Positions 31,669-33,760 of a stretch of DNA of 51,822 nt are shown piece by piece (the first letter of the stretch is position 1; each line of letters begins with the position of its first letter). A program made the translations under genes and the position numbers. Origin of the DNA: Rhodobiaceae bacterium (lineage in GTDB: Bacteria > Pseudomonadota > Alphaproteobacteria > Rhizobiales > TMED25); assembly GCA_002699615.1 (NCBI GenBank), contig PAAM01000019.1, positions 20,936 to 72,757 of the forward strand, in the 5' to 3' direction. Below the pieces are notes generated by a model. It was given only the letters and a program-made list of their open reading frames with translations, ran no database searches and had not been told where the DNA came from.

Positions 31669-31932
31669 ATGAAACTAATATATAAATTATTAATAAGATT
31701 AACTTTGTTGTTAGGGGTTATTTCTTATCTTTTCACGGTTGGCATTGCATTTGTAAAAAATGGGTTTGTAATTGGGGTCCTGAGTGCAAGCCTCCCGTTA
31801 CTCTCAAATGCTTATTGGACATACGCATTGTGGAGTGAGTCTGATAAATTTTATCAGATATATGTTAATGGGCAAATTCTGCTTTTTTTACTCATAATAT
31901 TCAGCATTGCGCTACATAAGTTAAAATCCTAA
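31669..31932 (+). CDS. small membrane protein of unknown function
   Basis: 87 aa with three hydrophobic segments (about 5-25, 30-50 and 65-83) and a basic C-terminus. The middle SASLPLLSNAYWTYALW is loosely reminiscent of ATP-synthase-I-like small membrane proteins, but I do not assign it. It starts with ATG and has no strong ribosome site. It is convergent with the tRNA-Arg gene and divergent from the MFS gene. Confidence 0.6.
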   Translation: MKLIYKLLIRLTLLLGVISYLFTVGIAFVKNGFVIGVLSASLPLLSNAYWTYALWSESDKFYQIYVNGQILLFLLIIFSIALHKLKS

Positions 31933-33051: not shown

Positions 33052-33100
33052 AAGTGATGTAATTTTAATCACTTGACTATTTTTTTGGCATATTTAGACT
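33052..33100 (+). promoter_or_regulatory. candidate promoter with overlapping inverted repeat for the small hydrophobic protein pair
   Basis: A -35 hexamer TTGACT (33073-33078) and a -10 TAGACT (33095-33100) are 16 bp apart. The -35 overlaps the right arm of a perfect inverted repeat: AAGTGAT at 33052-33058, 9-nt centre, ATCACTT at 33068-33074. The arrangement suggests an operator. The predicted leader to the first start codon is about 58 nt. The rest of the 265-bp gap (32899-33163) is AT-rich with only a short TACAC/GTGTA repeat at 32968-32982. Confidence 0.4.
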
Positions 33101-33163
33101 TAAATAGTGATTCTATTTATAAGTTTAAACACTAAAAAATAGAAAATAAAGATGGGAGAAGTT

Positions 33164-33397
33164 ATGACAGCTTTATTAGACAACTTGAGAGGTATTCTAA
33201 AGAATTCTCTCGAAATAGCGCTTTGGGCGGTAGCACTGCTTACTCTACTTCAAGTTTTGTTTGGTGATAGTTTTGTATTACTATTCGGAATCGATGTACT
33301 GGGTAATATTGGTGGACTTATGGCTCAATTTGGTAGCGAAGGACTTGTTGGCTTAATAGCCGCGGGTCTTGTTGCGTACTTAATTAGCAGAAAGTAG
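33164..33397 (+). CDS. small hydrophobic protein, first of a tandem paralogous pair
   Basis: 77 aa. An amphipathic N-terminus (LLDNLRGILKNSLE) is followed by a hydrophobic helix (IALWAVALLTLLQVLF), a glycine-rich linker (DVLGNIGGLMAQFGSEG) and a second hydrophobic helix (LVGLIAAGLVAYLI) with a basic end, SRK. I chose ATG 33164 because GGGAG at 33154-33158 is 5 nt upstream; the longer reading from 33152 would bury the ribosome site. It is clearly homologous to the gene at 33490: both share Q-x-LF-x-D, V-x-GN, QF-x3-GL-x-G and IAA. I do not recognise the family. A two-helix inner-membrane protein made at high level is the best description. Confidence 0.75.
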   Translation: MTALLDNLRGILKNSLEIALWAVALLTLLQVLFGDSFVLLFGIDVLGNIGGLMAQFGSEGLVGLIAAGLVAYLISRK

Positions 33398-33453
33398 CAC
33401 AAGCACTATAATAAAGGGATTTATGGTGTTTAGCTTCTTTTAAGCACTGTAAA

Positions 33454-33475
33454 TTGTTAAACTTTTTTTTAACAA
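33454..33475 (+). other. hairpin directly upstream of the second small hydrophobic gene
   Basis: Perfect 8-bp arms TTGTTAAA (33454-33461) and TTTAACAA (33468-33475) enclose a 6-nt C/T loop. The stem ends 2 nt before the GGGAG ribosome site. It could be an mRNA stability or processing element, a translational control, or a weak attenuator. Confidence 0.5.
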
Positions 33476-33489
33476 ATGGGAGAAATAAC

Positions 33490-33705
33490 ATGTTTTCATC
33501 ACTAACTGGCACACTCAGAAGTGGCATCGACGTTGCGTTAGTTTTAGTTGGGTTAGGGGTTGTTTTGCAAATCCTTTTCCCGGATGCATTAGCATTCATT
33601 AACGCTAACGTTGCCGGAAACCTGATTGATTTAATAAATCAATTCTCAGGTGCTGGTCTAATTGGTGTGATCGCAGCATTGATTGTTGTTGACCAATTAA
33701 AATAG
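33490..33705 (+). CDS. small hydrophobic protein, second of a tandem paralogous pair
   Basis: 71 aa with the same layout as its neighbour: MFSSLTGTLRSGIDVA, a hydrophobic helix (LVLVGLGVVLQILF), a linker (NVAGNLIDLINQFSGAG) and a second helix (LIGVIAALIVVD) ending QLK. The start is ATG 33490, with GGGAG (33478-33482) 7 nt upstream; an in-frame TTG at 33454 would read through the hairpin and the ribosome site and is rejected. A strong terminator follows its stop codon by about 16 bp. Function unknown. It lacks any signal peptide cleavage site or Cys. Confidence 0.75.
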   Translation: MFSSLTGTLRSGIDVALVLVGLGVVLQILFPDALAFINANVAGNLIDLINQFSGAGLIGVIAALIVVDQLK

Positions 33706-33720
33706 TTAATTTCAATAAAT

Positions 33721-33760
33721 AAAAATGGGGGCTAATGTGTTATATTTAGTCCCTATTTTT
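33721..33760. terminator. bidirectional rho-independent terminator
   Basis: A 15-bp stem (33721-33735 with 33746-33760, two G-U pairs on the plus-strand RNA) has a GC core, A tract on the left, T tract on the right and a 10-nt loop. It serves the small hydrophobic pair on the plus strand and, with T's on both sides, probably the convergent ABC ATPase gene, whose stop codon (33753-33755) lies inside the stem. Confidence 0.85.

Follow-up and report, generated by a model that had tools for sequence, protein, structure and literature searches.

A linked pair of small, predicted two-helix membrane proteins in a marine OCS116-type genome belongs to an unnamed family with relatives in other proteobacteria and on T4-like viral contigs

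The window analysed here is a stretch of 51,822 nucleotides from a draft genome of 1.45 Mb, for which the closest named records are of the OCS116 cluster and of Rhodobiaceae/Rhizobiales marine metagenome-assembled genomes (MAGs), and it is part of an OCS116-type (Rhizobiales) marine genome. Two adjacent small genes, A and B, lie on the forward strand of this window together with the following features:

33067 to 33073, + strand: AATCACT, an operator-like half site that overlaps the -35 box of the promoter and is near-invariant in 14 genomes
33073 to 33100, + strand: sigma-70-like promoter, TTGACT-16-TAGACT, conserved in 14 genomes
33104 to 33116, + strand: ATAGTGATTCTAT, an operator-like box placed where transcription is expected to start and near-invariant in 14 genomes
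33154 to 33158, + strand: Shine-Dalgarno sequence GGGAG of A, 5 nt before the start, duplex energy -7.3 kcal/mol
33164 to 33397, + strand: gene A, 77 aa, a member of the A-clade of the family
33384 to 33412, + strand: TTAGCA-17-TATAAT, a possible additional promoter of B that the sister genus does not preserve
33418 to 33455, + strand: intergenic hairpin with a 16-bp stem, z -4.6
33478 to 33482, + strand: Shine-Dalgarno sequence GGGAG of B, 7 nt before the start, duplex energy -7.3 kcal/mol
33490 to 33705, + strand: gene B, 71 aa, a homolog of A and a member of the B-clade of the family
33721 to 33760, + strand: terminator hairpin with a T run, z -4.2

The first-pass annotation had described the two reading frames as adjacent homologs sharing an ordered series of motifs, and both points stand, with A and B being 38% identical across 64 residues (BLASTP, single comparison, E 3e-9) and having in common QVLFGD/QILFPD (Q-x-LF-x-D), VLGN/VAGN (V-x-GN), QFGSEGLVG/QFSGAGLIG (QF-x3-GL-x-G) and IAA. 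The start of A at 33164 agrees with its relatives and represents the common N-terminus of the family; an alternative start at 33152 would precede the ribosome site. Neighbouring genes, named from their translations, comprise an SDR-like gene, a tRNA, an MFS-like gene, a convergent ABC-type ATPase and polA. A further gene for an 87-aa membrane protein (31669 to 31932) adjoins tRNA-Arg, and related genomes keep it close to the pair. A and B occur side by side in all 14 host-family genomes and are under strong purifying selection, with dN/dS of 0.04–0.12 where computable (dS not saturated), B being more conserved than A; given this universal presence and the low dN/dS, the pair is not a chance arrangement.

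Several of the features around the pair bear on its expression. The anti-Shine-Dalgarno duplex energy of -7.3 kcal/mol seen before both A and B is reached by only 5 of the 40 genes in the window, even when each is allowed its best start within 40 codons. Across the family the ribosome sites are stronger than those of other genes (median -8.6 versus -4.8 kcal/mol, p 7e-18), in a comparison favoured by the fact that the family starts were picked partly by ribosome site. Upstream, the AATCACT half site is inverted relative to a downstream AGTGATT, and the sequence surrounding it and the ATAGTGATTCTAT box varies among the 14 genomes in which both are preserved. A search of the assembly for a ATAGTGATTCTAT regulon found a single exact site, the box at this promoter, and one-mismatch sites only at control level, which implies that any regulator is either specific to the A/B unit or recognises a different site elsewhere. 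The intergenic hairpin has the same shape in 11 distinct sequences, three of its base pairs being altered on both sides. The terminator hairpin, missed by a simple scan because its loop exceeds the limit of that scan, is retained in the sister genus with a quite different sequence. The signals reported at first pass, namely near-perfect GGGAG sites, an operator-like promoter, a hairpin between the genes and a strong terminator after them, were thus all recovered, and the expression signals proved stronger than those of neighbouring genes. This arrangement resembles pufBA-type operons in its small membrane proteins, strong ribosome sites and intercistronic hairpin, which in puf operons sets subunit ratios via mRNA stability (PMC10253847). 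By analogy the intergenic hairpin may lead to more A than B being produced; A and B differ from the puf proteins, however, in having no photosynthetic function, and an effect of the hairpin here would be an extension from that system. B may also have its own promoter.

The description of the products as tandem two-helix membrane proteins agrees with both their charge pattern and structural models. In A, an amphipathic N-terminus is followed by a first membrane helix (TM1, about residues 17–33), an interfacial helix (about 45–55) and a second membrane helix (TM2, about 57–76). Among 93 members, positive charge is found in both tails and the loop is acidic, so that both ends are predicted to be inside (N-in/C-in). 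AlphaFold monomers, of moderate confidence (pLDDT 83 for A and 75 for B), consist of a long N-terminal helix, a short connection, the interfacial helix and a second membrane helix, and A, B and a phage copy alike show amphipathic character in the interfacial helix (p 0.005–0.033). The most conserved residues are G60, L61 and G63 at the start of TM2 and E17, L25 and Q30 along TM1. Such small packing residues, together with polar residues in a hydrophobic helix, are what might be expected of an oligomer.

None of the libraries searched names a family for these proteins, in line with the first-pass annotation. A and B gave no significant match to Pfam, NCBIfam, PHROGs or the sequences of PDB entries, and 46 members of the family gave nothing convincing against the same collections. 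Foldseek searches with the model of A against the PDB and against viral models returned no E value below 1, a two-helix hairpin being poorly informative in such searches, and literature searches found nothing on this protein family. The family is therefore termed unnamed with respect to three family libraries, one search by sequence against solved structures and two by fold. The best yet weak Pfam match of 9 of the 46 members was DUF6903 (PF21844; E 0.005), which was rejected as a home for the family: neither A nor B matched it, and the best score in their own genome, 9.3 bits against a cut-off of 24.2, fell elsewhere. A rotary ATPase c subunit was likewise rejected, there being no mid-helix carboxylate; TM2 has a mean of 0.01 acidic residues, and the sole conserved acid is E17 at the start of TM1.

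The profile search across alphaproteobacterial genomes proposed at first pass detected homologs in 44 of 385 sampled genomes, of which a few of the weakest, lying within long reading frames, are doubtful. A phylum-wide sample of 398 genomes added one further weak match, in a 265-residue frame. Named records with homologs are MAGs of Rhodospirillaceae/Rhodospirillales type and, in the gammaproteobacteria, marine Arenicellales and Acidiferrobacteraceae MAGs. A second bacterial family has a single gene in 6 of 6 good genomes, while adjacent same-strand pairs occur at 14 of 40 alphaproteobacterial loci, with gaps of 37–134 bases; no partner gene was conserved across bacterial lineages in the loci compared. 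Nine gammaproteobacterial MAGs (L065–L073) have a single family gene with constant neighbours, consisting, by translation, of DUF1611-like and dipeptide-epimerase-like genes upstream and an adenylate-cyclase-like gene downstream on the opposite strand. In several alphaproteobacteria (L212–L219, L223) a very divergent second paralog adjoins an ordinary copy, a pair type that differs from A/B. From translation reading only, one of contigs C17 and C25 in genome bin G000 (L233, L234) has a TonB-receptor-like gene typical of Bacteroidota and the other has terminase-like phage genes; these contigs are probably contamination or a phage contig within the MAG, for which the contamination estimate is 6%.

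A tree of 93 rows was built from only 77 columns, and many of its forks are weak. The A-type and B-type proteins nevertheless form two supported clades, each holding OCS116 and other alphaproteobacterial members, which points to one old duplication that preceded these lineages and whose products stayed linked; in one genome (L062) the gene order is reversed. The second pair type, of an ordinary and a very divergent copy, is a separate clade. The viral copies fall into a single group (89/87) placed next to the gammaproteobacterial copies (98/98), suggesting transfer between cell and phage in one direction or the other.

Relatives are encoded by 437 viral contigs, many with T4-like neighbours, and the viral copies are single rather than paired. 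Examined loci include a T4-like major head protein, scaffold, tail tube, ThyX and endolysin, and the head protein of one contig is nearest that of Pelagibacter phage HTVC008M (61%). Classified by upstream gene, the copies occupy four main places in 130 viral loci: 71 follow dUTPase and 20 follow a phosphoribosyltransferase, another 19 come after the major head protein, and 12 after ThyX. Most of the dUTPase-preceded loci have an Hsp20 gene downstream. In all, about 64 viral loci, roughly half, have an Hsp20 chaperone gene immediately after the family gene (for example L105:2217-2699), often with an M15 endolysin gene further on. On three T4-like contigs, transport clusters directly follow the family gene (L124:5267-9118; L134:5267-6526; L110:5312-9507), with genes for a BMP/PnrA lipoprotein, an NMT1-like binding protein with an ABC ATPase and permease, and an ammonium transporter. 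A candidate resident holin in phage L110 was not confirmed.

One of the viral sites lies between gp23 (capsid) and the tail-tube gene, and T4-like phages are known to concentrate auxiliary genes around gp23 (PMC8115048). In Pelagibacter phage Mosig and Methylophilales phage Melnitz-3 the junction between the head-protein gene and the next gene has no family gene, and HTVC008M has an unrelated ORF at that site. With family members as queries, tblastn returned nothing from isolate phages or plasmids even when the E limit was raised to 10; because low-complexity filtering may hide queries as hydrophobic as these, five whole isolate phage records were also searched by profile, which found nothing in either the records or their gp23 loci. 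The viral gene resembles the auxiliary genes of T4-like marine phages in having homologs on bacterial chromosomes, in residing on truly viral contigs beside gp23 or transport genes, and in being missing from five isolates of related phages; it differs from them in that the family is not in PHROGs and in that no isolate phage with a family gene was found, by BLAST searches that were possibly insensitive.

The explanation that we favour, tentatively and at somewhat below even confidence, is that A and B are abundant oligomeric N-in/C-in hairpins with a standing, non-lytic role in the membrane, and that the phage copy is auxiliary cargo. Strong ribosome sites, core presence, paralog linkage and packing residues together suggest an abundant oligomeric protein of this kind. 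A and B are paralogs within a family of inner-membrane proteins of about 75 residues, each predicted to be a helical hairpin with both ends cytoplasmic and an amphipathic helix between its membrane helices, and would be produced in quantity from a regulated transcription unit. They would most likely assemble through contacts made by TM2, which is rich in glycine, and by the conserved Glu/Gln face of TM1, with A joining B where the genes are paired and identical subunits joining each other in lineages that have one copy. Such an oligomer might then have a standing task in the cytoplasmic membrane, for instance keeping it organised or supporting membrane complexes, and the copy in T4-like marine phages would plausibly sustain that task in the infected cell. 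Within this reading, the existence of the family, its distribution, the linkage of the genes, the selection on them, the topology signals in the sequence and the cargo position are observed, while abundance, oligomerisation and role are inferred. A broader proposal, that the family is a new oligomeric proteobacterial membrane system, ion-conducting or membrane-organising, hetero-oligomeric where paired and of such importance that marine T4-like phages take it up repeatedly as cargo, is more doubtful; for heterotrophs, such a system would be the membrane equivalent of the small proteins with which cyanophages protect photosystems.

An alternative to this favoured reading, that the proteins are small helper components of some known membrane complex, such as a transporter or respiratory enzyme, with the phage copy boosting transport, is rather unlikely: some phage copies do directly precede transport genes (for an ammonium transporter or BMP lipoprotein), and the size and topology agree with those of other small helper subunits, but the bacterial genes are standalone with no conserved neighbour, and the more frequent phage context is the dUTPase site, mostly with Hsp20, instead. 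The most serious of the lytic readings holds that the phage copies are class II holins and the bacterial pair a holin/antiholin-like system forming pores. Class II holins such as S21 have two helices with N-in and C-in ends (PMC9636201), and the family, at about 70 residues, matches them in predicted topology, from the charge pattern and the models, as well as in its occurrence in phages; an M15 endolysin gene moreover lies within 3 kb downstream in 49 of the 130 viral loci. We nonetheless consider it unlikely, since the four genome positions and the absence at the gp23 site of related phages suit movable cargo, the holins of T4-like phages are described as class III with one helix (PMC9636201), the bacterial genes are core, chromosomal, often paired and strongly conserved with no constant endolysin neighbour, and members have no convincing match to holin families in Pfam or PHROGs.

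Superinfection exclusion or phage resistance, in which hosts and phages alike would block incoming phage DNA in the manner of T4 Imm, appears improbable. Imm, at 83 residues, is similar in size to the family proteins and is likewise found in the membrane and encoded by a T4-like phage, and family members occur in both hosts and phages, yet there is no profile similarity to it (hhalign probability 1.3%) and the near-universal, slowly evolving host copies are unlike defence genes. Least credible is a two-peptide bacteriocin or secreted toxin pair. The first-pass annotation had listed a two-peptide system among its possibilities, and small hydrophobic homologous proteins in tandem would suit one, but this suggestion found no support: no leader peptide, immunity gene or export gene was recognised beside the pair, which is a core chromosomal feature throughout the host family, and relatives can be found as single genes in other bacteria and in phages.

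The pair is small, standalone and easily expressed, so that its function, its partner and its state of oligomerisation can be tested directly. For the phages, the family puts a name to a frequent and unexplained cargo gene of T4-like ocean phages. The presence of the family universally in at least two streamlined bacterial groups, and on hundreds of marine phage contigs, suggests a membrane function that is important to both.
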